Positions 26,401-51,800 of a DNA stretch of 64,000 bases are shown piece after piece. Origin of the DNA: Chloroflexota bacterium. GTDB taxonomy: Bacteria; Chloroflexota; Dehalococcoidia; Lucifugimonadales; Lucifugimonadaceae. The position numbers and the translations under genes were made by a program. Every line of letters begins with the position of its first letter. The first letter of the stretch is position 1. The notes under the pieces are model-generated. The model was not told the origin of the DNA, did no database searches, and saw nothing but the letters and a program-made list of their open reading frames with translations. The stretch lies in the NCBI GenBank assembly GCA_029262735.1, contig JAJCYY010000019.1, positions 1 through 64,000 of the forward strand, in the 5' to 3' direction.

Positions 26401-29400
26401 GGAGTCGGCTGCGGTGTGGGAACCGGAGTCGGAGTCCCCTGTGGAGGAGGAGCCTGTCCCGAAGAGACCGTGTTCGCAGCGCCTACCGGGTAGCGGAGTA
26501 TCGCCGCACCGGTGAAGTTCGAGTCGAATACGATCGTGCGCTTGGAACCTCTGTACGACGCCATGTAGATGTAGCCGTCGCCACCATCATTGATCTGGCT
26601 GTGGATCTTACCGTGGCCGAAGGCGCCCGGAACGTGTCCGACCGCGGTGTTGATGTCTCCCACCGCTTTCAGCTTCATCGTGACGGGATCGTACTCGTAG
26701 AGATAAGAGTTGCCGTCAAAGGTCAGGTGATCGCCAATCGCCGCGTAGAACCGTCCGTTAGAGGCATAGAGCGTCCCACCCCATGTGCTCCACGGGTTAC
26801 CTGCATAGTTCGGCAGGTCGTACTCCATAAACTCAACGGTCGGAGCGGTGTTTGCAACGGAGTGTGCGGGCAGTCCTGAGGGTCCAGACAGGAACCCCGA
26901 AGAGGTGATTACGGATGCGCTGGTTGAAAGTCCAAGGTGAGCGGATGTTTCGGCAATACCGTTCGGCATCGTGAGCATTCGATTGGCGGGCACGCCGTCG
27001 CGCCTGTACTCAGACCCTGAGAAAGGCATCTTGACCACCACATCGACATAACGCTCATTGCCGAGCCCGAAATGGGCGATCGCCGGTTGCGAAGACGACC
27101 AGCCGAACGAGGGACTGATCTCTCTCGCTCCGATCAACTGCGTGGTGCCCGCCTTGTAGATCTTGACGAGACCACCAACGCCCATCGTGTTCTCGCCCGC
27201 GGAGGTGTCGCCTTCCATCCTGACCTGCAGCCAGTTTCCGGGAGCACCGGTGTTCTGCATCAGGCGTGAAGGTACCGGCGTGCCGAGCGTCGAACGCCAT
27301 TCCGCCAGGAATATGTCCAGCTTGCCGTCGCCGTTGAAGTCGGCTGTCGGTCCACCCGCGTAGTAGTGCGGGTTCTGGATCGACGGAATGTTTGGCGGCA
27401 GGCTGAAGGTCGGATCGCCGGAGTTGCCGTTGTTCCTGAAGATCAACGGCGCGGGACCGTCCGGGGTGTCGACTGTCACCGATGTGTAGATATCTGTCCA
27501 GCCGTCGTTGTCGAAGTCCTGGAGCTCGACATGCGGCAGCTTTGAGACGACACCCGGCAGGCCGGTCGAGTTCGTGATGTCGTCGAAATCCGGGTCTCCG
27601 TTTGGCAGGGTGCCGCGGTTCATGTAGACGCGGACCTTCGTCGCCTGTCCGCCGTCAACGGAGCTACCGAAATGCTGGCCGACCACCATATCCAGGCGAC
27701 CGTCCCGGTTCAGGTCCGCGAGCGATGCACCGGAGACCCAGTCTTCGGTGCCGTTCGTGTACGCAGCCCAGTTAAAGGTGCTGCCCGTGTACTCGTGGTA
27801 GGTGCCATTGCCATTGGCAACGAACAGGAAGTTTCCGTTGGGTGTGAACTGGTCAACCTCACCTGCGACAAATATGTCTGGCCAGCCGTTGCCGGTCATG
27901 TCGCCGATGGCGAAACCGAGTCCGTGGGCATTCGTCGGCAGTCCTGCAGCAGATGTGACGTCGGTGAACTGAAGTCCGCCATTGTTGCGCAGCAGGACAG
28001 TCGGGCCGCTGTTCCGCAACGAGTCAGCGACTACGAACAGGTCAAGCAGGCCGTCCCCGTTGTAGTCGAGCACTCCGGCCTGGCGGCCATTTGTAGACTG
28101 TGCATCAATGCCGCTTCCAGCGGTGACATCGACGAAGCTGCCGTTGTCGTTGCGCAGGAGGCGGGATGGCTCGGCAGACGGGCCTGTCTGTCCGGCGATC
28201 TTGTTGTTGGAGATGTACAGATCGACGTCGCCGTCGTTGTCGAAGTCTGCGAATACAGAGCCGGAAGCACGGCCGGTGATTCCCAGTGCCGTTTCACCGG
28301 AATCTGAAAAACTCCCCGCCTGGTTGAGAAGCAGTTTGTTCGGGCTTTGAGTCGGACCGGATGCGAAGGTGCCGGCAAACAGATCGAGCCATCCGTCGTT
28401 GTTCACGTCGCCCCATGAAGCGGTGTGCAGATAGGTGTTGGAGAGCAGCGCGTCGATGCCGCTTTCTGCGGCGACATCTTTGAACGAGAACGAGGGCGTG
28501 ACAACGATTGGTGCTTCTGAAGAAGGTATGTTGACCAGAACTGTTGCAGGGTTGCCGAATCCCAGGGTTGCGCCGGGTTCCTGGGCCAGGTCCACGGCAT
28601 TCAGGTTCATGAACAGCTTCTGACCGGTCTCATCGATATCGAGGGCGTACGCGCCGCCAATCCTGAAACCCTCACGGGCCTCTAAGACGTCATTGAGGAA
28701 CGCGATCACCTTGTGATTGTTTGTCTGGGTGTCGTACTGAAGAACGGGTGCTTCCTTGTTGAAAGCGTTGCCGTGGGCGTCGGGCATGTAGTACATGTAC
28801 CGCTCTGTCGGGTCGATCACGACGTGGGTCGTGTAGCCCCAGGCTGTGCCGACCTCTTGCAACTGGACCGTGTTCGGGTTGAACCGGAAGACCTTTTCAG
28901 GTTTTCTCGTGACTCCGTATATCCAGCCGTCTTCCGTCTCACGGGTCGCCGCCCTCATCCAACCGCCGGACGCAAACGTGACAGGCAGTACTGAGACCGA
29001 GTTCGTGGAGGGATCGTATTTTGCGAGTCCGTTGCCATTGACGGAGAAGTAGGCGTTTCCGGACTTGTCGACCGCGATCATCCGGTGGTTTGTGACGATG
29101 TTCTGGTTGCCGGAATAGATCACGGTGCGCTGGTTGATGTCGTAGACCATGAAGGGACCGGAATCGGTGCCGCCTTCAACCGCCAGGGCGTAGAGCAGCC
29201 CACCTTCCGGCCATGAATTTGTCGCCGGAATGGTGAAGCCGGGAAGCGGGACGCCGAGGCTCTCGTACGTGCCTGTGGTCGAGTCGGTTCGGGCGACCGA
29301 TCCGTTCCGAGCGACCAGGGCGATGAGAACCAGAACTGCGACGGCAAGGCCGGCAACGATGCGGAATGTCCAGTGTTGCCTTTCAGAAGCTGACATGAAG

Positions 29401-29411
29401 TTCAGTTGCAT
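23445..29411 (-). CDS. Giant secreted protein: VCBS/FG-GAP, ASPIC/UnbV, LamG, FnIII modules
   Basis: This 1988-residue secreted protein has an N-terminal hydrophobic segment (about 17-34). Modules in order, by eye: a propeller-like region (45-300); FG-GAP/VCBS repeats with D-x-N-x-D-G-x-x-D calcium loops (305-720); an ASPIC/UnbV domain with a final H-F-G-L-G (722-810); a short propeller segment; a LamG/concanavalin-like domain (1014-1230); an Ig-like domain (about 1264-1370); an unassigned domain (about 1374-1540); Thr-Pro-Val-Pro linkers; an FnIII domain (1627-1727); more linker; and two copies of a G-W-N-L-V-motif domain (1827-1988). It is probably a cell-surface or matrix adhesin. From the LamG domain on it is a paralogue of the 48850-54045 protein. 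No cell-wall sorting signal is seen. Confidence 0.82.
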   Translation of the reverse strand: MQLNFMSASERQHWTFRIVAGLAVAVLVLIALVARNGSVARTDSTTGTYESLGVPLPGFTIPATNSWPEGGLLYALAVEGGTDSGPFMVYDINQRTVIYSGNQNIVTNHRMIAVDKSGNAYFSVNGNGLAKYDPSTNSVSVLPVTFASGGWMRAATRETEDGWIYGVTRKPEKVFRFNPNTVQLQEVGTAWGYTTHVVIDPTERYMYYMPDAHGNAFNKEAPVLQYDTQTNNHKVIAFLNDVLEAREGFRIGGAYALDIDETGQKLFMNLNAVDLAQEPGATLGFGNPATVLVNIPSSEAPIVVTPSFSFKDVAAESGIDALLSNTYLHTASWGDVNNDGWLDLFAGTFASGPTQSPNKLLLNQAGSFSDSGETALGITGRASGSVFADFDNDGDVDLYISNNKIAGQTGPSAEPSRLLRNDNGSFVDVTAGSGIDAQSTNGRQAGVLDYNGDGLLDLFVVADSLRNSGPTVLLRNNGGLQFTDVTSAAGLPTNAHGLGFAIGDMTGNGWPDIFVAGEVDQFTPNGNFLFVANGNGTYHEYTGSTFNWAAYTNGTEDWVSGASLADLNRDGRLDMVVGQHFGSSVDGGQATKVRVYMNRGTLPNGDPDFDDITNSTGLPGVVSKLPHVELQDFDNDGWTDIYTSVTVDTPDGPAPLIFRNNGNSGDPTFSLPPNIPSIQNPHYYAGGPTADFNGDGKLDIFLAEWRSTLGTPVPSRLMQNTGAPGNWLQVRMEGDTSAGENTMGVGGLVKIYKAGTTQLIGAREISPSFGWSSSQPAIAHFGLGNERYVDVVVKMPFSGSEYRRDGVPANRMLTMPNGIAETSAHLGLSTSASVITSSGFLSGPSGLPAHSVANTAPTVEFMEYDLPNYAGNPWSTWGGTLYASNGRFYAAIGDHLTFDGNSYLYEYDPVTMKLKAVGDINTAVGHVPGAFGHGKIHSQINDGGDGYIYMASYRGSKRTIVFDSNFTGAAILRYPVGAANTVSSGQAPPPQGTPTPVPTPQPTPTPVPLPVGERVADGLISLYEFEEGAGSSIADSAGVGAPIDLTIQNSAAITWVTGGMRVDSEAIIESAAAAGKISDAVKASGEITVEAWITPSNLAQTGPARIVSISSGSLLRNVTLGQSGNEYNVRLRSTNTSLNGVPQLDSQPGAVTQNLQQVVFTRSSAGLTTLYINGVSVQTGVASGTLSSWDSSFKLALANEIGDSRAWLGEYYLVAIYAKDLSQEEISHNFAQGEGGGTTPPGPTPTPEPQPTSTPVPPVTPTLVLSNWNRTVADTLDGATVVGDLYVRIAGDSNVNTVDFYLDDPGRTGSPFRTDSGSPFDFDGEALSAASPFDSTRLQNGSHNITAVITPIAGAADVLSATFTVNNPPPNGLSDELLVFDWDQPVTESHRGFPDNDPPIASANGDWTQQPNFDTGTFHFRVEVDSQPVPQDMLLQFCVWQFSLDLESCTTSIVMVLTGNPGTVHTASQPIANMWKKNGNPINWSVARDRYGIAIKNQGGSPVSDFQGWNWNGENPAEWYPLDMRFTVVVVEDGGVFDGWDNYVSTPPQPTPTPVPQPTSTPVPQATETPVPQPTETPVPQPTSTPVPQPTSTPVPQPTATPVPPPSGGGGGGSGAPPPPPTQAPSGPVAPAAPRGVNAIVDGLDIVLEIAVPLVTGGSPITGYRVLSSPDATIYFINRLADGDTLTIPGLTVGVNYQFQVRAINAVGMSPSGTMSNTATITEVVSEPTPTPALAGAPSDPPPEPGAPEPTAVPTPVVSSPPAVVPTKSPVPVATRTPRPVQQVPRPRVTSTAQPTATPVPTSGRPGGPAAAPTTASAKVPDVATTDLNPGWNLVSFPVLPEDRSIEAVFISIAGLYSEISTIRNGEAVSYVPGRPANTLTEITSDHGYWIRMSKDATIVTVGAAVPGRTEIELNEGWNLVPYVIDRTWPVRFALSSIAGKYDEVRGFDTEAVSFFPALPAAFNTLHELEAGRGYLIHMNQPAVLTPR
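24600..24775 (-). repeat. 24-bp tandem repeat coding for TPVPQPT-type linker
   Basis: Six to seven imperfect 24-base units encode Thr-Pro-Val-Pro-Gln-Pro-Thr-x in the giant surface protein. The units differ mostly at silent positions. This is a protein linker repeat; similar tracts lie at 52775-52910. Confidence 0.85.
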
Positions 29412-32774: not shown

Positions 32775-35174
32775 CTACGGGGTGAGCCAGTCTTCCACTC
32801 CACCACCGGTTGGTTGCCCGACATTCGAGATCAGGAGCGACAGGTCTTGCGCTGTGACGAAGCCGTCGGCGTTGATGTCGACGAAGTTGCCGCTGCCATC
32901 GAGCCTGTCGGATGGTTCCGCGCCGAACGAAAGTAGCCATGCTGACAGGTCCATACCGTCAACCGTGCCGTCGCCGTTGATGTCACCGGCCCGGAGCGTA
33001 GTTGTGGGCGGCGCGCCCGTTACGGTGCCGTCAGCGGCAACGGTTATCGGAACTACAGGACTGAACAGTCGGGGCAGGAAACCTGAAGCGTTGGCCTGGA
33101 TGTGATACTCACCGGGAGAGCCGACAAGAATAGCGATCGTCCCATCGGATGGGTTGTACCGGCTGAGCGATTTCTCGGTCGCCGATCCAGATATCGGAAT
33201 GACGCTGGCCGACGGTCCGACCAGCGACAGTGAGGCGGCGTTAGTAACTGCCTGCAGGCCATAACTACCGCTAATTGTGGCGAACCCAACGTTAAAGGAC
33301 GGCGATGTGGAGCTGGATATGAGATCGGCTGAGTTAGTGAATCCGGTACCCTCCGGTAATCCGCCTCCGTCCAGCGTGAACACATCGACTCCGATGCCAG
33401 ATCGCACAACGTCAAACGTGACAACTGATCCGCTATTGGCTTCAGGGCCCGTACCGAGGGCACAGGTGACGAGTGTCCCGTTGCCACTAGAGTTTGGTGT
33501 TGGACCTGACGGTGTACCGCCAGAGTAGATGCTTCCACACAGAGGATTCTGAACAGTGAACTTCGAGCTGTCGTGGATCACATTCAGTTGAATACCGTCC
33601 GTCATCGCAAGAGGAACAAATGGTGTATTGACCGTGACCGTGTGCGAAGATCCAACGTTCAGAAGGGCCAGATCGCTGAGATCGAAGTTCAGCACCATTC
33701 GAGCTGAGCCGAGTGGGTCCGGGTTGTTATCAGGATCCCCGGACAATACTTTAAGCCCGAAATCGGCGTCGTTGTGAGCGACGGCCAGATCGATAAGGAT
33801 CTGCCTGAGCGCGTAGGTGTCTAGTTCGTCTACGAAGGAGTCTCCGTTGATGTCACGCGTGCCGTTCCGCGCTATCAGCAGTGCTGCCAGTCCGGCCGCC
33901 TGTGGCGTGGAGAAACTGGTGCCGCTCGTTCGCCGGTAGTGACCGCCAACGCCATCGTCGTTGTTGATGCACTCGAGCCGAAGAGTTTCGTTCACGAATT
34001 CCAGCGCCGAGTCCGGCACGCATGTTGTCATGATGTCGACGGCCGGCATTGCGAAGTCGATAGCGGCGCCAGGTGAAGTAACCGGATTGGAGGGGGCCAC
34101 CGCTCCACTGAAGTTGCTGCTGGAGTAGAAGGTGTCGTCTAGATTGCCGTTGCTCGCCGCGGGACCGTCACTCCCCGATGCTCCGTCCGTGTCGGCATAG
34201 CCAGAGATGGTCGCAACCTCCGGATATGAGGCCGGTTCCAGGTCGTCGTCGCCACCCAGGACGCCATCCGGTCCAAATATTTCCTTAGCAGCGTTGCCCG
34301 CGGACACGAAGTATGCAATTCCAGTGGCTACCGATCCCTGGATAGCGGACCTTAAAATAGCGGAATTGTTGTTCTCGACCAGAACACTCATATTCACCAC
34401 TTCGACGTCGGCTGCGTTGGCGGTTATCGAGTCAATGGCTGCTACCAGCGCGTCGATAAGCAGCTCATCAGAGTCGAATCCGCCGATCGGGCCCAGAACA
34501 GGGTGGTCTCCGATCAGCCGGTAAGACCAGATGCGTGCACCGGGGGCCGTTCCGACGATGCCGATGCCGTTGTCTCTTGCTGCGGCGGCTCCCGCAACAC
34601 GTGTGCCATGTCCCGCGACGTCCTGGTTTAACGCCGGGTCAACCGTGATGCATTCGTTGGTCACCCCATCGAAGACGCAGTTCCAGGCTCGGTGCAGGTT
34701 CAGGTCCGGGTGCGTGCCGTCGACCCCGGTGTCGATGATGGCGATGTCCACATCGAGACCTATGTCGTCGCCGTTGATTTCGGCAAATGGATGGGAGGCG
34801 TCGAGGCCGGACCGCTCCATCCATACCTGCACCTCCTGGTCAACCGGAAAATCGGTGAGTTCGAGCCCGCCGTTCGACTCCAGGTGTTTTACACCGGGGT
34901 GAGACGCCACAGCGGCCACGTGGTCATCTGGCACTATCAGCGATGCGCCATTTAGCGCGTGCTGGTATACGAAACGAACGCCAACTCCGTACTGGGATTC
35001 GAGTTCCGCCAGCATCCGGTCCGGGTCAACACTGTCTTCGAACATGACGATGTGGCTGGCCGAGATAGGGTTGGCCTGCGACACGGACGGACGGCGCGCG
35101 TCACCGACTAGCACAGCCAGTGATGCAAGTGCGACGAGCGCTACCAGCGCAATATTGCGAGAGGGTGCGTTCAC
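32775..35174 (-). CDS. Secreted subtilisin-like (S8) protease with cohesin-like and dockerin-like modules
   Basis: This 799-residue exported protease has a signal peptide (about 1-35), an I9-like prodomain (about 40-105) and an S8 catalytic domain with Asp148 (I-I-D-T-G), His189 (G-H-G-T-R-V-A-G), Asn294 (S-A-G-N) and Ser420 (G-T-S-F-S-T-P). After it come a cohesin-like beta domain (about 490-640), a carboxypeptidase-regulatory-like domain, and a dockerin-like pair of calcium loops (D-I-N-G-D-G-T-V-D-G-M-D-L-S and D-I-N-A-D-G-F-V-T-A-Q-D-L-S). Start GTG 35174. It lies 97 bp downstream of the RiPP exporter permease on the same strand. It could trim the exported peptide, but the modules tie it equally well to the surface proteins at 43271-47966. 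Confidence 0.85.
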   Translation of the reverse strand: MNAPSRNIALVALVALASLAVLVGDARRPSVSQANPISASHIVMFEDSVDPDRMLAELESQYGVGVRFVYQHALNGASLIVPDDHVAAVASHPGVKHLESNGGLELTDFPVDQEVQVWMERSGLDASHPFAEINGDDIGLDVDIAIIDTGVDGTHPDLNLHRAWNCVFDGVTNECITVDPALNQDVAGHGTRVAGAAAARDNGIGIVGTAPGARIWSYRLIGDHPVLGPIGGFDSDELLIDALVAAIDSITANAADVEVVNMSVLVENNNSAILRSAIQGSVATGIAYFVSAGNAAKEIFGPDGVLGGDDDLEPASYPEVATISGYADTDGASGSDGPAASNGNLDDTFYSSSNFSGAVAPSNPVTSPGAAIDFAMPAVDIMTTCVPDSALEFVNETLRLECINNDDGVGGHYRRTSGTSFSTPQAAGLAALLIARNGTRDINGDSFVDELDTYALRQILIDLAVAHNDADFGLKVLSGDPDNNPDPLGSARMVLNFDLSDLALLNVGSSHTVTVNTPFVPLAMTDGIQLNVIHDSSKFTVQNPLCGSIYSGGTPSGPTPNSSGNGTLVTCALGTGPEANSGSVVTFDVVRSGIGVDVFTLDGGGLPEGTGFTNSADLISSSTSPSFNVGFATISGSYGLQAVTNAASLSLVGPSASVIPISGSATEKSLSRYNPSDGTIAILVGSPGEYHIQANASGFLPRLFSPVVPITVAADGTVTGAPPTTTLRAGDINGDGTVDGMDLSAWLLSFGAEPSDRLDGSGNFVDINADGFVTAQDLSLLISNVGQPTGGGVEDWLTP

Positions 35175-35271: not shown

Positions 35272-36078
35272 CTAAAAGTGGGCGAGGCTTCCTTCAGAGC
35301 GGGCCTGGTCCATAGCCGCACTGAACCCCAGCAACGCCAGGGGGAACATCAGGATGGCGAATACGCCGAGAACAATCAACTGCGTCCCGATGTCTGAGAA
35401 GCTGGCATTCGAAAGCACAGACAGGCGCATCGCCTCGATGGCGTGAGTCTGCGGCAGGGCCTGGGCTATTCGCTGCAGCCAGAACGGTAGCACGTCCACT
35501 GGGTAGACGACGCCGCTCAGGAACCCGGAACCGGTTACGAGCAGCAAGGTAATCGGGTCGCCCTGTTTGAACACGAGAGTGAAACTGGCGGCCATCAAGC
35601 CCATGCTCAGCATCACGATCAGGAACAGGAAAAATACTGTGATGGCCGGCAACACGTTGACTGTGTCGACGGCAAGTCCGAGCACAACGAATCCGCCGGC
35701 GATATACACGAGCATGCGCAACGACTCGCGTACGAATGGATAGAGCGATAGGCCGACTATGAGGACCGGGAGCCGCGCCTTCGTGAAGAGGAGCACCTCC
35801 AGTGTGCCCGTCACCTGCGCTGATCGAAGGCTCCGGGAGAATGCGTTGAGCGATGTTGCCGAGAACGTCGTGATCACGACCCCGAGCAGCATGAAGCTAA
35901 CGTAGTTGCCGCCGTACTCTGAGATCGAGGGAACCGAAACGTCCCCCAGCGATCGTTCCAGGAACACCAGCACGATCAGGGGCGCTACCAGCGATCCTGT
36001 CTGCAAAATAAACGCGAACCGGTAGCTACGGGCAACCCGCATGTCTTTCCAGAGCAGTATCCAGAGGTCACGCAGCAT
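35272..36078 (-). CDS. ABC-2 type transporter permease (RiPP operon)
   Basis: This 268-residue integral membrane protein has six hydrophobic segments and an ABC-2 layout. A segment G-S-G-F-L-S-G-V-V-Y-P-V-D-V-L-P-F-W-L resembles the conserved region of ABC-2 permeases near the fifth helix. With the ATPase just upstream (start 36078, 2 bp after its stop) it forms a complete two-component exporter. Its place behind the precursor peptides and kinase suggests that it exports the mature peptide and gives self-immunity. Unlike many lasso clusters, the ATPase and membrane parts are separate proteins. Confidence 0.85.
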   Translation of the reverse strand: MLRDLWILLWKDMRVARSYRFAFILQTGSLVAPLIVLVFLERSLGDVSVPSISEYGGNYVSFMLLGVVITTFSATSLNAFSRSLRSAQVTGTLEVLLFTKARLPVLIVGLSLYPFVRESLRMLVYIAGGFVVLGLAVDTVNVLPAITVFFLFLIVMLSMGLMAASFTLVFKQGDPITLLLVTGSGFLSGVVYPVDVLPFWLQRIAQALPQTHAIEAMRLSVLSNASFSDIGTQLIVLGVFAILMFPLALLGFSAAMDQARSEGSLAHF

Positions 36079-36080
36079 TG

Positions 36081-37085
36081 TTAGTCGGTCCTCGCAAGCT
36101 GCTCGATGGCTGAGCCGAGTGAGACCTGGACCTTGTCGATTCCGGCAACGCCGACGCCGGAGTTGACGAGATGCTGGACGACCATTGGGATGCGGTCCTC
36201 AGGCTGATCAAGTGCCAGCTCGATAGCGAACCCTTCGTTATTTTCGCCGGTTGCGATCTCGTTCGCTCCGTGGATGCCGGGGAGTGTGAGGATGGATGCG
36301 GTAGAGCCGTTCATCCGGTTAGTTGTGCGAATGATCCAGCGGTCCTTGCCTGTGAGCTGCGAAACGACCCTTTCGACGGTGTCATGCGCTTTTAGCTCGC
36401 CCCGGTGGAGTATTGCCACCTTGTCACACAGGAAGGAGGCCTCTTCTGTGTTGTGTGTTGCAAGCAACAGGGTTGTGCCGAGTTTGCCGACCAGTTCGGT
36501 GCGGATAAATTCCCACATCTGCCGTGCGCCGGCCGGGTCGAGGCTGCGCGTTGGCTCGTCTAACAGCAGAATCTGCGGTTTGACGAGGAGACCTCTTGCA
36601 ATGGCCAGCCGTTGCTTCATGCCGGATGAGTAGCGCATGACCAGTCGGTCGGCGTGCTCAGTCAGCCCCACGAGCTCCAGCAGCTCCGGAACGAGTCTGG
36701 CCTGTTCCGAACTGCTGATGTGCTGCAGCGTGGCAAAGACCCTCAGGTTCTCCTTACCGGAAAGCCGCCAGAACATGCTGCGTTCTTCGTTGGAAACGTA
36801 GATCAAGCGGCCACTGAGGGAGTCTGAGCCGTCCGTTACATCCTGTCCGTCGATTTCGATGTTGCCTTCGTCCGCGAGGATCAGTCCTGCAAGGATCTTG
36901 AGAAGAGTCGTCTTGCCGGCCCCGTTGGGACCGAGGAGCGCAGTGGACTGGCCGGCGGGGATCTGGAGGCTCACACCTTTAAGTACTTCGACTTTTTCGC
37001 GCTTCCAGAACGCGACGATGTCCCTGTAACCGCTGGTTACAGGAAATCTTTTGACAACTTTTTCAGTTTCAATGGCGAGTGCCAT
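36081..37085 (-). CDS. ABC transporter ATP-binding protein (RiPP operon)
   Basis: This 334-residue ABC ATPase has Walker A G-P-N-G-A-G-K-T (52-59), a variant signature Y-S-S-G-M-K-Q (152-158), Walker B I-L-L-L-D-E-P (172-178) and an H-loop A-T-H near 210. A C-terminal extension of about 90 residues (from about 240) is of the kind seen in drug- and polysaccharide-type exporters. It energises the ABC-2 permease encoded 2 bp downstream. It follows the HPr-kinase-like gene after 127 bp and is taken as part of the peptide operon. Start ATG 37085. Confidence 0.9.
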   Translation of the reverse strand: MALAIETEKVVKRFPVTSGYRDIVAFWKREKVEVLKGVSLQIPAGQSTALLGPNGAGKTTLLKILAGLILADEGNIEIDGQDVTDGSDSLSGRLIYVSNEERSMFWRLSGKENLRVFATLQHISSSEQARLVPELLELVGLTEHADRLVMRYSSGMKQRLAIARGLLVKPQILLLDEPTRSLDPAGARQMWEFIRTELVGKLGTTLLLATHNTEEASFLCDKVAILHRGELKAHDTVERVVSQLTGKDRWIIRTTNRMNGSTASILTLPGIHGANEIATGENNEGFAIELALDQPEDRIPMVVQHLVNSGVGVAGIDKVQVSLGSAIEQLARTD

Positions 37086-37212
37086 AGGTTGACCGTGTCC
37101 GGGGCAGGAGTCTCGGAGAGAATCTGACTCTCCGGGTCGCCGTTTTACAGGGGGGACTTCGAGCGGCGGTTCGCCGATGGGTCGAAAGTTAAAGATCTGC
37201 TTACGAGTCAGT

Positions 37213-38199
37213 TTAGCGGTCGGCGTTTACGGAGTTGCAGACTTCGGTGAGCCTGTGCATGTCTGACGGGTAGCGAAGGTGTTTGACAGGCACCTTTGCA
37301 AGCATCTGAGTGATTAGCCCGAACTGCTCGGCAAGGCGCTTCTTACTCAGTATGGTGTTGTTTGAGATGCCCTGCATGATCGTTGGTAGCGCCTCGACGG
37401 GCGGCACCTTCACGATTTCCGGCCCTTCTAGCTCATCAGCCTTGACCCGTTCGAGCAGGTAGATCGTTCGCAGCGGGAGACTGGCGGAAACATCAGCCTG
37501 TTCCGCTCTCAGAGTTACCCGTGTTTTGTCGTAGTCAGGTTCGGCGTGAACATCGCCGCCCATTCGTCCTGTGACGAAGTCCAACGAATTCTGATCGAGC
37601 CGGACGTGATTGGGTCCCCATTCAACAACCGGTTCTCCACCGTCCTGCCAGACAGAAACCAGGTCGTCTGCGACCAGTGTGTGGCCCATTGCGTGGAAAC
37701 TGGCGGAAAGGGTCGATTTTCCGGTGCCTGAGGTGCCCAGCAGGGCAACCACACCACCATCGACCACGACGGCTGCGCCGTGCAGAGTCACCGCTCCGAG
37801 GAAGTTGAGCGCCAGGGGCAGCACGCGGCCCTGGATGAATGGATTGACCTCGCCCCAGGGAACCTCCGGCCACGGGTGGCAGACGATACGGGAGCCATCA
37901 TCCGAAACCTCGAAATCGCAGAGATCTTCCCAGCGAATCACCAGGCGGGAATCGAGATCGTACAGGGCAAACGGCTTAAGGACGTCGTCGGCCGTGTGGT
38001 AGTGGCTCCGGTAGACGGCTTCCGCATCGTCGATTCCGGGGTAACGGCCCTGAGCATCCGGCCACACGATGTTGATATCGCTGTGGCCGGACTCAATGCG
38101 TTGAAATCCGGGGATTTCGACGTTCGATTCGACGACGCGACCGTAGACACGATAGAGGTACACGTGCGTCGCAATCTCCCCTTGAACTGAGGGGGCCAC
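37213..38199 (-). CDS. HPr-kinase-like protein, putative RiPP-tailoring kinase
   Basis: This 328-residue protein has the HPrK/P fold: L-H-G-A-A-V with His140, a P-loop G-T-S-G-T-G-K-S (155-162) and L-V-A-D-D-L (176-181). Homologues in lasso-peptide clusters such as paeninodin phosphorylate the C-terminal serine of the precursor (established for that system). Both precursors here end in T-S-A, so the penultimate Ser is a natural target (inference). No PTS genes are nearby, which argues against a role in HPr regulation. The gene follows precursor 2 by 80 bp. The start is uncertain: GTG 38199 has no clear ribosome-binding site, while a downstream GTG at 38163 has GGGGAG about 12 bases before it. 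Confidence 0.82.
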   Translation of the reverse strand: MAPSVQGEIATHVYLYRVYGRVVESNVEIPGFQRIESGHSDINIVWPDAQGRYPGIDDAEAVYRSHYHTADDVLKPFALYDLDSRLVIRWEDLCDFEVSDDGSRIVCHPWPEVPWGEVNPFIQGRVLPLALNFLGAVTLHGAAVVVDGGVVALLGTSGTGKSTLSASFHAMGHTLVADDLVSVWQDGGEPVVEWGPNHVRLDQNSLDFVTGRMGGDVHAEPDYDKTRVTLRAEQADVSASLPLRTIYLLERVKADELEGPEIVKVPPVEALPTIMQGISNNTILSKKRLAEQFGLITQMLAKVPVKHLRYPSDMHRLTEVCNSVNADR

Positions 38200-38279
38200 T
38201 GCAATATTACGGTGCGGCGGCGCAGCGTCGTAAGAGTTACGTGAGCTGGCCGTGTGCGCAGTTGCTGACGACGTTGCCG

Positions 38280-38474
38280 TCAGGCCGACGTGGCCTCGCA
38301 GTTATTGTAGTAGTGGCCGTCCCAGCAACTGGCAGGGTCGGTCATGATGTACTGGTCACCAGGGCCGGAGCGTTTCTTCCACCAGCTGCCCGTCTTGGTC
38401 TCTTCCGAAAGCGAGCCGATTATGGAAACCGAGGGCTTGGAATATGCCCTTTTTTCGGTGGTCGTTTCCTGCAC
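38280..38474 (-). CDS. RiPP precursor peptide 2
   Basis: This 64-residue peptide starts with GTG 38474, with AGGAG eight bases upstream. The leader carries Y11-S-K-P-S-V-S-I-I-G20 and T26, matching the YxxPxxxxxG...T motif bound by lasso B1 proteins. The C-terminal half is rich in aromatic and charged residues, with two Cys (50 and 59), G-P-G-D-Q-Y-I (37-43) and the ending C-E-A-T-S-A. If the core began after the residue following T26, no Asp or Glu would be at ring position 7, 8 or 9, so it is not a standard lasso core. It shares leader, G-x-G-D-x-x-I and C-E-x-T-S-A with precursor 1. It lies between precursor 1 and the kinase. Confidence 0.8.
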   Translation of the reverse strand: MQETTTEKRAYSKPSVSIIGSLSEETKTGSWWKKRSGPGDQYIMTDPASCWDGHYYNNCEATSA

Positions 38475-38682
38475 GTTGTCGTCTCCTGATAAAAACTTCG
38501 CTTACCAGATGCAAGCTCGTTTGACCTGTGAACGGGTTTGACCGGGAGTCCCGACAGGTTGCAGATATTCGTCATCAACGATCGGGTCGCAGGCAGTCCT
38601 GAGCTCCGAGCGGTCGCAGGATACACGCGCTACCGGGGTTCTGGCGATCCAAAAGTAGCGGACAATATAAATATTTATTCAT

Positions 38683-38792
38683 ATTTGAGCCGGGGACAGG
38701 CTTTGGAGCGTTATGAAAACGGTCCTGTCCCCAGACTCAAATCTTGCCCGTTGCCGGGCAATGGTGCTGATCGCGTCTCCGCTTTCAGCACC
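38683..38792 (-). repeat. Three consecutive hairpins between the two precursor genes
   Basis: Three inverted repeats are packed end to end. GGTGCTGA (38763-38770) pairs with TCAGCACC (38785-38792). TTGCCCG (38744-38750) pairs with CGGGCAA (38755-38761), giving a GCAA tetraloop in minus-strand RNA. ATTTGAGCCGGGGACAGG (38683-38700) pairs with 38724-38742 apart from a small bulge. No U-run follows, so they are not simple terminators. They could protect or attenuate the message, setting the ratio of the two precursors and downstream genes, or be a REP-like insertion; GGGGACAGG motifs are typical of some REP elements. Confidence 0.65.
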
Positions 38793-38798
38793 TTTGGA

Positions 38799-38969
38799 CT
38801 AGGCGGAGGTGTTCTCACAGTCGACGCCGAGAGTACAGATATCAGTCTGTCCCCCGTCGCTAGACTGGAAGATCATTCCATCGCCTGCGCCACCGACCTT
38901 GATTTGAAGGGTCTTCCCTGCAATCGTGCCAATGGCGCTCACCGTCGGAGAAGTGTAGTGCTTCTTGAT
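38799..38969 (-). CDS. RiPP precursor peptide 1 (probable ATC start)
   Basis: Directly after the cyclase stop, the minus strand reads TAGGAGG, six bases, then ATC AAG AAG CAC TAC. The frame gives 56 residues and ends with TAG at 38799-38801. The leader has Y5-T-S-P-T-V-S-A-I-G14 and T20, the B1-recognition motif, closely matching precursor 2. The C-terminal part has G-A-G-D-G-M-I (27-33), Cys45 and Cys51, and ends C-E-N-T-S-A. Counting the core from two residues after T20, Asp30 would sit at ring position 9. No ATG, GTG or TTG occurs in frame upstream of the leader motif; the only later GTG (Val10) would delete it. ATC is either a rare start codon or a base error for ATG. Confidence 0.75.
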   Translation of the reverse strand: MKKHYTSPTVSAIGTIAGKTLQIKVGGAGDGMIFQSSDGGQTDICTLGVDCENTSA

Positions 38970-38979
38970 TGTGCACCTC

Positions 38980-40917
38980 CTAAGTTACGGGTGAGGTAGA
39001 AGCTGAACCACGTTGTGACGGAGACGCTCCTTTTTCGTTCTCATTTCCGTCATCAACCACATGTTGGCGTAGCCATTGCTCGAGCGTGATAGCCGCCCAG
39101 AGCGCTGTGCGCCGCCTGTTATCAACGTGGCTTGCCGAACCCAAATAGTGTGACCATGCCTGCTGTAGTGAGACCGGATCGACCATTCCGGAGTCTTCCA
39201 GCACTGGCGAACGGAAAAACTCAGAGATTTCCTCCGCCTGGCTTTGCGTAGATTTCACGTCGTAGAGACTTGAAAAATCGGTCTTGTAACGCCGGTTGCG
39301 AACCGTTTCCGGAAGAATGCCTTTCATCGCCCTGCGCAACAGCCGCTTGCTGTAGCCGAAGCGGTATTTGACCTGTGGCGGTACCGACACCAGGAACTCT
39401 GCCAGGTTGCGGTCCCAGAAAGGGTGGCGAGGCTCAAGGCCGTACTCGGCAACGGTCACATCGGTCCACGTATAGCCCGGAAGACCGCCGCGCATCTGAA
39501 TCCATGCATCGATTTCTTGCTGTTGATGGCTTTTGAAGCTGCGGTCGCTGCGCCAGTCCGCTTCTCTGGCGGCATCGATGGCATGGCGCCCTCTCTCGCT
39601 GATCCAGGGAGCCGTTTCGATGTCGTCGTCGTCACTGCCGCTGCGCCAGCTAAATGGCACAAGCGAGCCGGCGGCGCTCAGCCCTGCCGAGAGCCAGGCT
39701 CTCCGGTGAAAGTAACGCCACTCACGTCTTATGGCGCGCAGATTAAATGCACGAAACAGGTCTACGAGGTAGCCGGACCCGGCTGTGAAAACCTCGTCAC
39801 CGCCAAGGCCGGTGAGAAGGACGTGTGACCCGTTTCGCTGTGCTTCACCGAAAAGCTTTCGGTGGCTCTCTTCGTGCGGAGCGATGTGAGGCTCTGCGCG
39901 GCGCAGCCCGAGCGGGGAGGAGCCAAGGCTGTCATCGTCGAACTGCCCGGATTCGATCATCTTTCCAGGTGTGCCGTACATTTCGACCGTTGGCCTGATG
40001 TACTCGGTCTCATCCACCTCGTCCATATCTTTGTAGACGTTCGAGTAGTAGCGCAACTCCGGCAGGTCAGGCGAGTCGGTTCGGCGCATGTGCTCCGCTG
40101 TCGCAAGTATCGAAGTCGAGTCCATGCCGCCGCTTAATGAGATAGCCACCGGACCGGCGCTGTTCATCCGTGACCGCACGGACTCTTTGAAGATGGCGAG
40201 AAACCGCTCTTCATATTCGCGGTCATCCTTCAGTGCCAGCACGTCTGACGGATCAGGATTCCAGTAGATTTCGACCTTTGGACCTGCTGTGGAGACTGTC
40301 ATCTGGCAGCCACCGGGCAGCTTCTTGATTCCTTCCAGGAAGGTGCGTTCCGGGGGGGCGGAGCGTGAGTCGAGGAACAGTGCGATGGAAACCGGGTCCG
40401 GTTCCGCTTTCACTATTGAGAGGATCTGCGAAATCTCTGTGGCGGCTATGAACCGCCTGCCGTCACAGTAGTAGTGGAGCATCCGAACTCCAATCGGGTC
40501 TCGACCGCAGAACAGTTCTTGCTGTGTCGAGTCCCAGATGGCGAATGCGAAGTCTCCGGTGATCCGGTCCACGCAGTGCTTGCCCCATTTTCGGTAGGAG
40601 GCGAGCAGCATCTCCGAGTCAGGAAGGGTGGCCAGTGTTGACGGATCAAGTTTGAGCGCAGCTGCCAGGTCGACGCGGTCGTCGATGCGGCCATCTAAAG
40701 CAACGGCGTAGCGGCCGCGGTCGGAAACACATGGCAACTGCTCGAAAGACGCCTGCGGAGTTGTCTTTAGCAGGCATGACCCGAGCCCTACGGATTCCGA
40801 GCTCCAAACACCGATACCGTCCGGCCCCCGATGGGCAACGGCGTCAGTCATCGTGCAGAGCTGCTGGTCCGTGACCGGCGCTCCGTCGAGGTTGAATATG
40901 GCGGCAATTGCACTCAT
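38980..40917 (-). CDS. Asparagine-synthetase-like RiPP macrocyclase (lasso cyclase, C protein)
   Basis: This 645-residue protein has the two-domain asparagine synthetase B layout: an N-terminal glutaminase-like domain (about 1-210) and a C-terminal synthetase domain with the PPi-loop S-G-G-M-D-S at 262-267. Residue 2 is Ser, so the Cys nucleophile of true asparagine synthetases is absent, as expected for lasso cyclases, which adenylate a side-chain carboxylate and close a macrolactam. Immediately upstream (12 bp gap) is the B2 peptidase gene, and 10 bp downstream is precursor 1. The start is ATG 40917. A true asparagine synthetase is unlikely given the missing Cys and this context. Confidence 0.9.
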   Translation of the reverse strand: MSAIAAIFNLDGAPVTDQQLCTMTDAVAHRGPDGIGVWSSESVGLGSCLLKTTPQASFEQLPCVSDRGRYAVALDGRIDDRVDLAAALKLDPSTLATLPDSEMLLASYRKWGKHCVDRITGDFAFAIWDSTQQELFCGRDPIGVRMLHYYCDGRRFIAATEISQILSIVKAEPDPVSIALFLDSRSAPPERTFLEGIKKLPGGCQMTVSTAGPKVEIYWNPDPSDVLALKDDREYEERFLAIFKESVRSRMNSAGPVAISLSGGMDSTSILATAEHMRRTDSPDLPELRYYSNVYKDMDEVDETEYIRPTVEMYGTPGKMIESGQFDDDSLGSSPLGLRRAEPHIAPHEESHRKLFGEAQRNGSHVLLTGLGGDEVFTAGSGYLVDLFRAFNLRAIRREWRYFHRRAWLSAGLSAAGSLVPFSWRSGSDDDDIETAPWISERGRHAIDAAREADWRSDRSFKSHQQQEIDAWIQMRGGLPGYTWTDVTVAEYGLEPRHPFWDRNLAEFLVSVPPQVKYRFGYSKRLLRRAMKGILPETVRNRRYKTDFSSLYDVKSTQSQAEEISEFFRSPVLEDSGMVDPVSLQQAWSHYLGSASHVDNRRRTALWAAITLEQWLRQHVVDDGNENEKGASPSQRGSASTSPVT

Positions 40918-40929
40918 ATGGTGATCGGC

Positions 40930-41454
40930 TCAGGCGGGATTGCCTTCGCTTTCACTCTCAGTTCTCGATGTAATCAGGGCGTTTTGAATCTGGCCTCGTG
41001 ACCCCGCGCCATAGTCATCCAACGACCTCAGCTGGGCGAAGGTAGAGACGTGGCGGACAGAGTCATTGATGATTTTTTCGTCGTGGACGACCCAGGCGTG
41101 GGCGTCGAACGAACCGGACCGCTTTCTGACTCCGTATCTGACCTCTGTGAAGATGCCGTCTTTTGCCAGCCATTCGCTCAGCGCCAGCGAGCGCTGTAGG
41201 CAGTAGGCCCATTCGACCGGGTAGCGAGAAGCTCTGCTGATGGCCGCAACGCGTTTCTTTATCAGTGCACGGTCTTCATCACCTGCATCACGCCTGACAT
41301 CTGACCCGTTTTTTGGCCCGTGTTCTCCGAAAAGCCACTGGTTGCCGCGTGCCCGTCCCATCAGGCGTTTGGCACGGAACAGCCACAGGTAGGCGCGCAC
41401 GAAACGCAGCCATTCCGCTGGACTAGACCGAACTATGGAGAGGAGCCTAAGCAT
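40930..41454 (-). CDS. Lasso-type leader peptidase B2 (transglutaminase-like)
   Basis: This 174-residue protein matches the lasso-peptide B2 family. The catalytic Cys85 sits in A-Y-C-L-Q-R-S-L-A-L, His119 in A-H-A-W-V, and an Asp in I-I-N-D-S near 131. It would cleave the leader from the precursor after B1 delivers it, before or during cyclisation. The N-terminal helix with W-L-R-F-V-R-A-Y-L-W is typical. The ATG at 41454 lies inside the end of the B1 gene (8 bp overlap), so translation is coupled. Confidence 0.92.
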   Translation of the reverse strand: MLRLLSIVRSSPAEWLRFVRAYLWLFRAKRLMGRARGNQWLFGEHGPKNGSDVRRDAGDEDRALIKKRVAAISRASRYPVEWAYCLQRSLALSEWLAKDGIFTEVRYGVRKRSGSFDAHAWVVHDEKIINDSVRHVSTFAQLRSLDDYGAGSRGQIQNALITSRTESESEGNPA

Positions 41455-41776
41455 GGTTGATGTGCATCAATCCGTATGACTGGAACTGCTGTAGTAGCGC
41501 CTCGACATCGGCTTTCAACATCGTCTTGTCGACCTCGTACTCGTCGAGCAGCGCCAGGACGACGGCGTCGATGCTCGGGGCGTCCCTTAAAAGCGCCCAC
41601 GTTCTAGCGGCGACTTCGTTCAGAGCGAAGTAGACGCCTGTTTCAAGGTTGGCCACCACGATCTCATCTCCAAGCTCCTGGAGAATGACATCCGACGGTA
41701 CGGTGACCAGGCCGTCGTGTTCAGGTTTCTCAGCCATTGCCGCCCCCGGATTGTCAGTTGCCGAAACAGATTCCAT
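41447..41776 (-). CDS. PqqD-like RiPP recognition element (B1)
   Basis: This 109-residue protein contains a PqqD-fold domain (about residues 25-105). It has the signature L-E-T-G-V-Y-F-A-L-N-E-V-A-A-R-T-W-A-L-L and a C-terminal helical part ending in L-L-Q-Q-F. In lasso systems such stand-alone B1 proteins bind the precursor leader through the YxxPxxxxxG motif; both precursors here carry that motif. The first 20 or so residues are low-complexity. The gene follows the nucleotidyltransferase by 23 bp and overlaps B2 by 8 bp. Confidence 0.9.
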   Translation of the reverse strand: MESVSATDNPGAAMAEKPEHDGLVTVPSDVILQELGDEIVVANLETGVYFALNEVAARTWALLRDAPSIDAVVLALLDEYEVDKTMLKADVEALLQQFQSYGLMHINHA

Positions 41777-41799
41777 TGTTTGCCGCCTTGTTTGAGGTG

Positions 41800-43050
41800 T
41801 TAGCCGGGTCTGTGCTTGTCGTTACCGGGCACAGCAACCCCGCTCGATAGCGAGTGCAGCCACCTGTCCACCTGTACTTCGTGCCAGAGTCTTAGCGGGT
41901 TGCGCAGGTACCCGAAGGACCGCTGCATCACCTCGCCAAGGCGCTTGAGACGAGTTCGCCCCGGGGCGTCGATCGCTTCATCGCCGTAGTGCTTTTCCAT
42001 GTACTGACGGTTCGGCGCCATTCGCCTGAACACGCCTTTTAGCACTGCTCGAAACGTGTAGACGGACTGATGCGGCACGAGCTCTGTGGCGGTCAGCGCG
42101 TTCGGTTCGAGTACGCGCTGCCTGATGAACAGCTCTTCCATCTTTTCTGAGTAGTCAGCCGGTCTCAGGACGTCGAGCACCGGAGCGGGCACGTTGGCGC
42201 CCATGATCGTGGAGGCTGTCGACAGGATGCTGAATATCGGTCCGTCTAGCCTGTATTGCTTCACTTCCGAGAGGAAAAATTCCCAATCGATGTTCTTATC
42301 GTCGACGCCGATCAAACCGATGACGTCGTTTAACTGCTTAAGGCTGGAGCCACTCGTAAAGCGGCGGTCCTGGAAGAAATGAAGGCTAACGTGCAGCAGC
42401 ATGTGTTCCGGCGAGGGAACGAAGACATCCATACCATGCAGTGTCACGGGACGGGCATGCTGCCAGAAGGTGTCAATATCGAAGTGCAGAGGGCTGTCAG
42501 AACCCACGATATGGGTGTGAATCTCGAAGGAGAGCTCACGGTCGTGGTTGTGCAGCCTGGGGAGGTGCTTGTGCTCCGGGGAGACGCTGCCACCCGCTTC
42601 GTAGCCAAGGCTGCGGGCGATTTCCTGGGCACGGTCGGCGAACTCAGCCTTCACAAGCAGGTCGACATCCGACATTTCACGGACACCCGGGTCTCGGTAC
42701 ACCGAGTCGATGAGTGCGACGCCTTTGAGGGCCATGACTTCGATGTTCTCGGCTTGCAACGCCCGCACTGCTTTTACGAATTCGGAGCGGATGTGGAGGG
42801 TGCGAACTGCGGTGTGCCTGTAGTGGCCTCGGATATGTTCCATGTGATCCGCGGGCAGTAGGTCGGCAGAGACGTTATCCCGAAGGAACGCGAAGAGCAT
42901 TCCGGTCATGCGGTGCCAGTGGGCAAGCCGCATGGTGCGATCCCAGGAAATGGGGTTTTCGCTGATCAGGTTGACGGTCCGGGCAACGGTTTTTGAATCA
43001 CCGCCCGGCGCGCAGCCAATCAGTAGCTGTTCCTCGGAACTGAGCTTCAA
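41800..43050 (-). CDS. Nucleotidyltransferase-family protein (RiPP operon)
   Basis: This 416-residue protein belongs to the putative nucleotidyltransferase family found next to lasso and other RiPP genes. The core motif A-L-K-G-V-A-L-I-D near residues 107-115 and S-D-V-D-L-L-V at 127-133 give the paired Asp residues of the polymerase-beta-like fold. It may add a nucleotide to the peptide or a partner, as in pseudomycoidin-type clusters; that role is inferred by analogy. It is the first gene of the operon. It starts at TTG 43050 with no clear Shine-Dalgarno; no ATG precedes the conserved region at a better site. Confidence 0.82.
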   Translation of the reverse strand: MKLSSEEQLLIGCAPGGDSKTVARTVNLISENPISWDRTMRLAHWHRMTGMLFAFLRDNVSADLLPADHMEHIRGHYRHTAVRTLHIRSEFVKAVRALQAENIEVMALKGVALIDSVYRDPGVREMSDVDLLVKAEFADRAQEIARSLGYEAGGSVSPEHKHLPRLHNHDRELSFEIHTHIVGSDSPLHFDIDTFWQHARPVTLHGMDVFVPSPEHMLLHVSLHFFQDRRFTSGSSLKQLNDVIGLIGVDDKNIDWEFFLSEVKQYRLDGPIFSILSTASTIMGANVPAPVLDVLRPADYSEKMEELFIRQRVLEPNALTATELVPHQSVYTFRAVLKGVFRRMAPNRQYMEKHYGDEAIDAPGRTRLKRLGEVMQRSFGYLRNPLRLWHEVQVDRWLHSLSSGVAVPGNDKHRPG

Positions 43051-48849: not shown

Positions 48850-51800
48850 ATGCAAATTCGACCCGTTGCAGCTGGATTCTCATTCACAGCGCTTCTACTA
48901 ATTGTTGCTGCTTTACTTGTTTCGACTCTTTCTTCGTCACCTGAGCGAGCCAGTTCCGCTGTCTCCAGCGCTCCTGGCGATGTTTCGTCTATACGATCAG
49001 GGGACTGGTCGGACCCGACGGTCTGGAGCAGCGGTCTTGTGCCTCAATCCGGCGACAAGGCACTGATCTCAGCCGGTCACACAGTCGTCTTCGACACCAA
49101 TGCGGTAGTTAGCGGTGTTGATGTCAGCGGCAAGCTCGATTTCTCTCGTACCGTCAGCACGACACTTGAGACCTCTGACAACGTCGTTGTCCAGTCCGGC
49201 GGTGAGCTGATCGTGGGTCTCTCGGAAGACCCGATTCCGTCAAACATCGTGGCAAGAATTGTTTTCGATGTCGACACAAACGACGACTGGGTCGGTGGCA
49301 GCGACTTCGCATCTTCCGACACTGGCCTCTGGGTCATGGATGGCGGCCGGTGGGAGAGCCACGGATCTCCCATCTACATTCCCTGGACCGAGCTGGCGGC
49401 TGACGCTTCTGCCGGGTCAACCGAGGTAGTTGCCGAAGGCGCCCTCGTTGACTGGCCTGTTGGTGCCACTGTCCTCGTGACAGCGACAGGGCGCAATATT
49501 TCAACTGCTTACGGCGTTAACGACTACTTCACCGAGGACGAGGAACGCGGCATCGCGGCTGTGCAGGACCTCGGCGACGGCACAAGCAGGATCACCCTGG
49601 ACGCCCCGCTTGCTTACGGCCACTCAGGGTCTGGAGTAACGAACGGCGAAATTGGTCTGCTCTCCAGGAACGTGGTCGTCTCTGCCAGTAATTCAGCGCG
49701 TGCCCACACGGTGTATATGCACGGCTCCAGCGGCACAGCCAGCGACACTCTGTTCCTTCACCTTGGACCTACTGTGAGCAACCGCCACCCGGTCCACTTC
49801 TACGCAATGGCTGAGACGTCAATCGGCAAGGTGTTCCGCGGCAACGTCATCTGGGATTCGCTCAACCGGTTCGTAATGATTCACAACTCCGTGGGGATAG
49901 AGCTCACGGACAACATTGGCTACCGCGCTATCAAAGGTGGCTTCAAGCTTGAGGACTCCGGCTCCGGGATCAACGGTCCGAAGCCGATGGACAATATTTT
50001 CATCCACAACCTCGCTGTCAAAATCACAGGTCTTGACCGAAATGACAGGAGGCTGGCGGCGTTCCAGTCACAGCGAGAAAACCACTTCCTCGGCAATACA
50101 GCCGTCAGTATCGGTGGTAATGGCGACTCGTCAGGGTTTCACTGGCCTGAAGCGCACATTCAGAGCTCCGGCCAGGTCTTTGTTCAGAACGAATCACACT
50201 CGAACCTGATCCACGGTATGTTCGGCTGGCAGAACAACGGCGCTTTCCACATTGTTGAACCGAGCGTGTGGCGGAACAGCAGTAGCGGTATCAAGTGGGG
50301 CGCTTACGTAAACTCAGTGCAGTTCCATGGCCTGAACTCTGTCGGCAACGTTGACGCTAACTTCCGCGCTCGGAACAATCACCCGCAGATCTTCGACTCT
50401 TACTTTTCAGGTGAGGCAAGTTACCCGACTAACAACGGGCTGTTCATCGATTTTTACACCCTTCCGCCCTCACCTGACGACCCCGGACGGACTTACGGCT
50501 CAGTGTTGGAGAATCACGTAGTTGCAGATGTGAACCACCTGCCCAAGACGACCTGCGCCAATGACGATGACTGCATACCGACCTTCAACGCCATCGTTGG
50601 GACGCAGCTACTCTCAAGTACCCCGATCCGCTTCGGCACCGACTGGGAGACGAGAAACCCCTTCTTCGACGTGCGTGACTGGCAGGGCACTGGTGACGGT
50701 CTCCCACTGAGCTTCCGGGTCTCCAGGCCGGACCAGCCCAAGCCTTCGCCATCCGCCTTCTACCATGCTCCGTTCGACGCATGGGTCGACCCGGAGAACA
50801 GCACAGCTGCAGCGCGGCCGCTGCCACCTACCATTTCATGGACATCCACGCCTTCTTCCGTGGGCTCTGGACCGGTTACGTTCAGGGCCTCAGCAGCCGA
50901 TTTCACCACGAACGAAGGAGAGATTGAGTTCTTCGTTGACGAGATGGAACAGGCTTCACCGTGGCGGGCGGAGTACTACTCCAACCCGAACCTGGCCGGA
51001 TCACCGGTGGTTGTTACTGAGAAACCTGAGCTTGACTTCTTCCTTGGCATCGAACCCGAAAACCGGGATCTTAGCTTGAAGAGCACGAAAAACCTGTCTC
51101 CTTACCTGACTCTGACGCCGAAAGGCTCGTGGTCTGGGAGGTTCACGCGGGACTTTACCCTGGACGTTGGAGGCGAATTCGAGTTCTTCGTCCTGGCAAA
51201 CGACGGCGTGAGGTTCTACCTCGACGGCGCGCTGCTTGTCGATAGCTGGCGCGAACACTCAACGTGCTGCACATCGGAGAGCACCAGGCTGGTGAATCTG
51301 AGCGCCGGACCGCACCAGATTGTGACCGAGTTTTTCACCTCCACCAATGACCGTGCGAAATTGACCGTGGAAATGCACCGCATCCTTTCCGGCTCTTCAT
51401 TCGCAGACTCCTTCACCTTCGACCCTTCCCTGTGGAAGAACCGCAGGCAGATACGCGTCTACGCACGTGCTCACGACCCTGCGACCGAGTTCTACGCCTA
51501 CACACCGGTCCTGACATTCGACAACCCGAACTTCGATATCTCAGCGCCTGAGACGGCTCCGCCCTCGCCCGATGCAACGCCTACGCCTGTTCCACAGGCG
51601 ACCGCTACGCCCGTTCCGCAGGCTACTGCTACTCTCGTACCGGTGCCCGGAGGCGAACGGGTTTCTGACGGGCTGATCGCTCTGTACGAGTTCGAAGAGG
51701 GAGCAGGCTCATCAGTTGCTGACTCTTCAGGCGTAGGTACGCCGCTGGAACTCACCGTGCAGAACGTTGCCAGCGTCACATGGGTGGCAGGCGGCATTCG

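Follow-up and report, generated by a model that had tools for sequence, protein, structure and literature searches.

The DNA stretch analysed in this work (referred to as the window) consists of positions 1 to 64,000 of contig JAJCYY010000019.1 from the GenBank assembly GCA_029262735.1 of a Chloroflexota bacterium (class Dehalococcoidia, family Lucifugimonadaceae). Between positions 35272 and 43050, its minus strand, on which all of the operon features described below are located, carries a complete operon of the lasso peptide type, viz. one for a ribosomally synthesized and post-translationally modified peptide (RiPP). The genes in this operon encode, in this order, a nucleotidyltransferase, a leader-binding protein (B1), a leader peptidase (B2), an AsnB-like cyclase (C), two precursor peptides (P1 and P2), a kinase, and the ATPase and permease of an ATP-binding cassette (ABC) transporter, so that B1, B2 and an AsnB-like C, the combination by which a lasso cluster is recognized, are found together. 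An initial annotation of this region, made from the sequence alone, had described the same gene order, location and strand, and all of the genes are found as it described them, with families that agree with the results of profile searches. Its description of the genes as mostly separated by overlaps or short gaps holds for most of the junctions (23 bp between the nucleotidyltransferase and B1, an overlap of 8 bp between B1 and B2, 12 bp between B2 and C, 10 bp between C and P1, 80 bp between P2 and the kinase, 127 bp between the kinase and the ATPase, and 2 bp between the ATPase and the permease), but not for P1 and P2, which are 324 bp apart.

Of the proteins that are expected to act upon the precursors, B1 (41447..41776; 109 amino acids (aa)) is a PqqD-type leader-binding protein, or RiPP recognition element (RRE), which matches the PqqD family (PF05402) with 60 bits and whose closest solved structure is TbiB1 (5v1u; E 4.5e-10). 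B2 (40930..41454; 174 aa) is a lasso leader peptidase containing Cys85 and scores 66.9 bits against NF033537 (cut-off 33); no close relatives of it were found on viral contigs. The cyclase (38980..40917; 645 aa), which begins with M1-S2 and retains the ATP motif SGGxDS (SGGMDS at position 262), scores 434 bits against the lasso cyclase model NF033535, which is below this model's cut-off of 525, versus 237 bits against the asparagine synthase model TIGR01536. Ser2 is invariant in 12 aligned cyclases (that from the window and 11 relatives), i.e. the Cys2 of asparagine synthetase B is lacking in all of them, and both this absence and Cys85 of B2 had been correctly recognized in the initial annotation. 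Based on the profile scores and the M1-S2 alignment, the possibility that this protein is a true asparagine synthetase is ruled out. An initial scan of genome contigs in which the cyclase served as the sole query yielded no matches.

Orthologous operons are present in three genomes of the same genus (G740, G741 and G742), which represent three other species, and the closest named relative is a locus (L084) in a Dehalococcoidia metagenome-assembled genome (MAG; JANQQP010000003); the match in G741 and that in this MAG are one and the same, with identical contig position. These observations bear out the earlier attribution of the operon to a Chloroflexota host, and given the orthologous operons in three same-genus genomes, MAG contamination is unlikely. 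The best-preserved copy is L084, whose proteins show about 60-87% identity to those of the window. Precursors are visible at two of the three orthologous loci, L084 and L179, which are long enough to show them; L084 contains two P1-like genes and one P2-like gene, and L179 one of each. For the P1 and P2 orthologues, the nonsynonymous divergence (dN) is about 0.12-0.43 and the synonymous divergence (dS) about 0.6-1.8, and dN/dS is below 0.5 in every pair with a usable estimate, the P2 pairs with L179 not being among them. As judged from these values, both P1 and P2 are under purifying selection, and the conservation and dN/dS together rule out chance or pseudogene peptides. Peptides conserved by chance and a cyclase grouping with true asparagine synthetases were the two findings that the initial annotation had named as speaking against its interpretation; the peptides are instead under selection and the cyclase scores with the lasso cyclases. 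However, its suggestion of a two-component product finds no support, as L084 has two P1 genes and one P2 gene, and lasso loci commonly encode several precursors. Another locus from the window's genus (L074, in G654) is a 4.2 kb contig with B2, the nucleotidyltransferase, the kinase and B1, from which the cyclase is absent; the predicted core of its precursor is merely GGGSQFS.

The precursor P1 (38799..38969; 56 aa) consists of the leader IKKHYTSPTVSAIGTIAGKTL, followed after the predicted cut by the core QIKVGGAGDGMIFQSSDGGQTDICTLGVDCENTSA, and P2 (38280..38474; 64 aa; GTG start) of the leader MQETTTEKRAYSKPSVSIIGSLSEETK and, after the cut, the core TGSWWKKRSGPGDQYIMTDPASCWDGHYYNNCEATSA. When these two are aligned with the five orthologues, all seven precursors from three species share the leader motif Y-x-x-P-x-[V/M]-x3-G-x5-T, which corresponds to the lasso leader pattern YxxPxLxxxG with Thr at position -2, except that Val or Met replaces the Leu (Val in the window's P1 and P2, YxxPxVxxxGxxxxxT); the Thr(-2) and its distance to the leader Gly are constant in all seven. 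Outside of this motif, the invariant features are an N-terminal Lys, the unit K-x-x-G-x-G-D, a C...C-E segment and an ending in Ser-Ala, and thus none of the seven ends in Ser as in precursors of the paeninodin/pseudomycoidin type. In the window, the Lys-x5-Asp unit is KVGGAGD in P1 (38880..38900; K3-D9 of the predicted core) and KRSGPGD in P2 (38355..38375; K7-D13). In canonical lasso peptides the ring acid is found at position 7-9 after the T-x cut (PMC9266682). Here it is at position 9 in the window's P1, at 11 in the three other P1s (two in L084 and one in L179) and at 13 in all three P2s, so that an acid at 7-9 is seen only for the window's P1 (D9) and, formally, for the P2 of L179 (E8). 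A gap of two residues, situated after the leader and before the Lys, distinguishes the P1 orthologues (TLQI--KVGGAGD versus TLQLPNKEFGVGD), and throughout the seven precursors the spacer leading to the Lys varies in length while the Lys-Asp distance is always six. This system works like a lasso peptide system, but the canonical acid at 7-9 is lacking in P2 and in most of the P1 orthologues. The cores had been noted earlier as unlike standard lasso cores, which is the case; their specific oddity, however, lies in the conserved Lys-x5-Asp, whose distance from the leader varies.

The significance of this spacing was assessed in a broader set of lasso loci, which were assembled from the B2 or cyclase matches in the genomes that were searched as well as in a GTDB-based scan. 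Precursors were taken by the strict leader motif adjoining a cyclase, a handful of spurious hits to the motif that did not look like precursors were discarded by eye before the final count, and 92 cores were left after de-duplication. In 72 of the 92 cores, the first acid found when counting from position 7 occupies position 7, 8 or 9, and because of this the cut register is considered validated. A further 8 cores become canonical when a second Thr is read as Thr(-2), and in the remaining 12 the first acid is found at positions 10-33. A Lys exactly six residues before the first acid is present in 11 of these 12 non-canonical cores versus 5 of the 72 canonical ones (Fisher 2.6e-9), but many of the cases share ancestry and this p value, which overstates their independence, is indicative at most. 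When the residues preceding the acid were shuffled 20000 times, a Lys at this position was obtained in at most 7 of the 12. The rule was set down before a second batch of loci was collected, and all four new unambiguous cases in that batch (L262, L278, L296 and L314) obey it; a third batch provided few usable precursors. Apart from Chloroflexota, related clusters from at least three further phyla show this spacing. The rule is absent at the Rubrobacter loci with B1 and B2 at which a cyclase is not detectable. Three loci from Rubrobacteria (L339, L340 and L341), with no cyclase detected within about 6 kb, encode B1/B2 and lasso-like leaders followed by Pro/Gly-rich cores (HGRGHPPFG...CNPSDGC...), and their product is possibly a leader-processed RiPP without a macrolactam.

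If the ring in these peptides were closed by the ordinary alpha-amine chemistry, then unusually large rings would result, with residue 1 attacking the Asp at position 9 in the window's P1, 11 in the other P1s and 13 in P2. The constancy of Thr(-2) and of its spacing from the leader Gly in all seven precursors speaks for this explanation, and alpha-amine attack is the only reported lasso ring-closing chemistry in the literature that was examined. However, in the relatives the distance from the cut to the acid ranges from 10 to 33 while that between Lys and Asp stays at six, and the extreme case is provided by Rubrobacter taiwanensis (L090), with the first acid at core position 33 and the Lys at 27 (K27-D33); here the acid is far too distant for an alpha-amine ring to be plausible, and a 33-residue ring is not credible. 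Rings of more than nine residues are, according to a review (PMC12427821), too flexible to hold the tail. Further, an N-terminal Gln, which can cyclise and thereby block the alpha-amine, is commoner in the Lys-type cores (5 of 15) than in the canonical ones (3 of 72). As the fixed Lys-Asp spacing is also left unexplained, large alpha-amine rings are considered unlikely, and this spacing pattern speaks, at the sequence level, against a canonical alpha-amine isopeptide.

A different way of retaining the canonical chemistry is to suppose that cleavage of the leader takes place at a site further downstream, or that a second trimming occurs, which would give an alpha-amine ring of 8 or 9 residues in which the Lys is the second or third. 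Alternative cuts may exist, since reading a second Thr as Thr(-2) rescues a canonical ring in L121, L122, L303 and L312, and leaders with Ile or Val at -2 are known (PMC10368454). However, the Lys-type cores show no conservation of the residues which would become -2 and +1 (Asp-9 to Asp-7), whereas their Lys at Asp-6 is conserved, the canonical cores show no comparable preference for Lys at ring positions 2 or 3, and the fixed spacing is again unaccounted for, all of which makes such a downstream cut rather improbable. One of the rescued loci, L122, is a haloarchaeal lasso locus from Halosimplex salinum, which has two precursors, TGSG[NT]NK[QV]GD (at 10112 and 10272), that reach a canonical 8-residue ring if the second Thr is Thr(-2). 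It may also be asked if the Lys is kept for some other reason, such as a tailoring modification or a contact with the cyclase, the peptides then not being macrolactams or not being threaded. Albusnodin does have a conserved acetylated Lys (PMC9266682), but profile searches reveal no acetyltransferase among the operon genes, and it is from the acid predicted to close the ring, rather than from the leader, that the Lys keeps a constant distance; this last explanation therefore appears very doubtful.

The interpretation that the ring is tied via the side chain of the Lys is suggested by the fixed Lys-Asp spacing alongside a varying distance to the leader cut, and for the operon as a whole we lean slightly towards a lasso-type system that would produce a Lys(side chain)-Asp macrolactam with a free N-terminal tail, decorated by the kinase and the nucleotidyltransferase and exported by the ABC pair. 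Whether these operons and their relatives in Chloroflexota, Acidobacteriota, Rokubacteria and Rubrobacter constitute an undescribed lasso-type subclass, in which an AsnB-like cyclase would join the Lys side chain to Asp(+6), leaving the N-terminus free and a pre-ring segment of 2 to about 26 residues, is in our judgement evenly balanced. In a cyclase tree of 100 rows, 15 cyclases with Lys-x5-Asp precursors form one group (support 88), whose members are from Rubrobacter (including Rubrobacter taiwanensis), Chloroflexota, Rokubacteria and Acidobacteriota, and which contains no other precursor type (L266 additionally has an acid at 9). The Lys-type cases from the window's genus and those from L054, L262, L285 and L314 are placed elsewhere. 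Forcing the three cyclases of the window's genus into the Lys-type group makes the tree 62 log units worse (approximately unbiased (AU) test, p 0.06), and a single lineage for all Lys-type cyclases inclusive of the window is not supported.

Several observations, besides the shared ancestry of the cases, weigh against a Lys-Asp ring. The window's cyclase branches outside of the 15-member group and is without most of its diagnostic residues, none of those present being convincing. The lasso cyclases described in publications close the ring with the alpha-amine (PMC9266682), and the Lys-Asp product is a prediction from sequence. Taken by itself, the window's P1 is also compatible with a canonical Q1-D9 ring; core position 8 is a Glu in the P2 of L179, and in P2 a Thr is found at both -2 and +1, which makes the cut ambiguous. 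The lone exception among the 12 non-canonical cores, L034, has its Lys at acid-7, and in the precursors of L132, which have Ile(-2), Gly1 and the acid at 10 or 12, the Lys is likewise at acid-7 and not consistently at -6. The latter precursors (10002, 10237 and 10542) belong to Acidobacteriaceae and possibly represent a second spacing class.

The start of P1 is also unusual. It is ATC in the window (38969-38967) and ATA in the three orthologous copies (those of L084, at 9919 and 10403, and that of L179), and thus in none of the four is it ATG, GTG or TTG. The P1 gene was absent from the open reading frame listing because of its ATC start; no ATG, GTG or TTG start that retains the leader is available, and a TAA that lies a few codons before the ATC closes the frame. 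An out-of-frame GTG inside the Shine-Dalgarno sequence gives another frame, and with an in-frame GTG inside the leader the YxxP motif is lost, hence both were rejected as starts. The Shine-Dalgarno sequence AGGAGG (38976..38981) overlaps the cyclase stop codon TAG and lies 6 nucleotides (nt) before the ATC, and all P1 copies have AGGAGG or GGAGG about six nt upstream, a strong site which overlaps the cyclase TAG wherever P1 comes next to the cyclase. In Staphylococcus aureus, conserved AUA/AUU starts with a strong Shine-Dalgarno sequence give about a tenth of the expression from AUG (PMC13009471). We infer that P1 is translated weakly and in coupling to the end of the cyclase gene, and P2 would be translated from its own start. 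A 52-nt GC-rich hairpin (38687..38738) follows P1, the surrounding 91 nt having a folding energy of -32.1 kcal/mol (z -4.2), and it recurs after every P1 copy, viz. twice in L084 (about 10138-10190 and 10619-10671), where it is duplicated along with P1, and in L179. A search of Rfam identified no known RNA family in the operon, inclusive of this hairpin.

In the proposed pathway, B1 would bind the leader of P1 or P2 and B2 would cleave two residues past the conserved Thr. The cyclase would then adenylate the Asp at the end of the K-x-x-G-x-G-D unit, and the side-chain amine of the Lys would replace the N-terminus as the nucleophile, giving rise to an exocyclic N-terminal tail of free length. 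By atom count, a Lys(i)-Asp(i+6) lactam has a ring of 26 atoms, compared to 25 and 28 for alpha-amine rings closed at Asp8 and Asp9, respectively (28 atoms for a 9-residue ring are also given in PMC13352647). Threading of the tail through this ring is presumed, and the Cys pair in the tail suggests a disulfide like that in class IV. The kinase (37213..38199; 328 aa) matches the HPr-kinase C-terminal domain weakly (32 bits), but it carries the full lasso-kinase motif H-x14-G-x2-G-x-GKS-x15-DD, with spacing identical to that in the lasso kinase BsfK (PMC10368454), and the cluster thus has the H-G-G-GKS-DD motif of PadeK, PsmK and BsfK that marks phosphorylated lasso clusters. It probably phosphorylates a Ser of the precursor, a candidate being the invariant penultimate Ser of the ...TSA/ASA ending. 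The nucleotidyltransferase (41800..43050; 416 aa; PF14907 (NTP_transf_5), 175 bits; 65.6% and 68% identical to its orthologues in L084 and L179) is by analogy a PsmN-like tailoring enzyme, which may decorate the phosphorylated precursor further. These profile families and the kinase motif sustain the earlier description of a lasso-type operon with both of these enzymes, and their presence suggests that the peptides are phosphorylated and further decorated in the manner of pseudomycoidin (PMC9266682). The ATPase (36081..37085; DrrA-like; 77% identical to its L084 orthologue) and the ABC-2 permease (35272..36078; DrrB-like; 87%) have a predicted role in export or immunity, and the pair may export the product.

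The gene set described here is already known. By contrast, neither a main ring closed between Lys and Asp nor the Lys-x5-Asp rule with its distribution was found to be reported in the literature searched, with most subscription papers outside its scope. Lasso peptides are defined by a ring from the alpha-amine to Asp/Glu(7-9), and precursor finders rely on that spacing. If the Lys-Asp ring is real, then lasso peptides will have to be defined more broadly, and many precursors that have been overlooked can be read. Tags, targeting segments or a second function could also be placed on the free N-terminus, with the knot untouched. The prediction is a precise one that can be tested at low cost, including in the named isolate Rubrobacter taiwanensis. 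Outside of the operon, a subtilase with a dockerin is located directly downstream of the permease (window 32775-35174), and the region is flanked by very large secreted-looking proteins (window 48850-54045, with G8/CEMIP-beta-helix/LamG/PA14, 1731 aa; and 23445-29411, with FG-GAP/LamG, 1988 aa).

Among the known systems, the pseudomycoidin cluster (psm) similarly combines the lasso enzymes with an HPr-kinase-like kinase (PsmK) and a nucleotidyltransferase (PsmN). However, its phosphorylated Ser is the last residue (PMC9266682), whereas the precursors described here have a Cys pair, a penultimate Ser and acids at 9, 11 and 13. The kinases of paeninodin and other phosphorylated lasso peptides (PadeK, ThcoK, BsfK) share the H-G-G-GKS-DD motif with the same spacing (PMC10368454), but the Ser is last in paeninodin and is Ser3 in the BsfA core, in contrast to the penultimate Ser of TSA/ASA. 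The class IV peptide pandonodin resembles these precursors in that the core is long and has its Cys pair only in the tail, provided that the disulfide forms, and differs in that the ring acid in P2 and the orthologous P1s is not at 7-9. In lariocidin B (class V; PMC12427821), the side-chain amine of a Lys also forms an isopeptide, as predicted here; its Lys2, however, closes a second ring to the C-terminus, whereas in these peptides it is in the main ring that the Lys would take the place of the alpha-amine. Lastly, metanodin (PMC12670498), also from an uncultured bacterium, has a non-standard first ring residue (Asn1) in a 9-residue ring, but there the N-terminal amine is still used.

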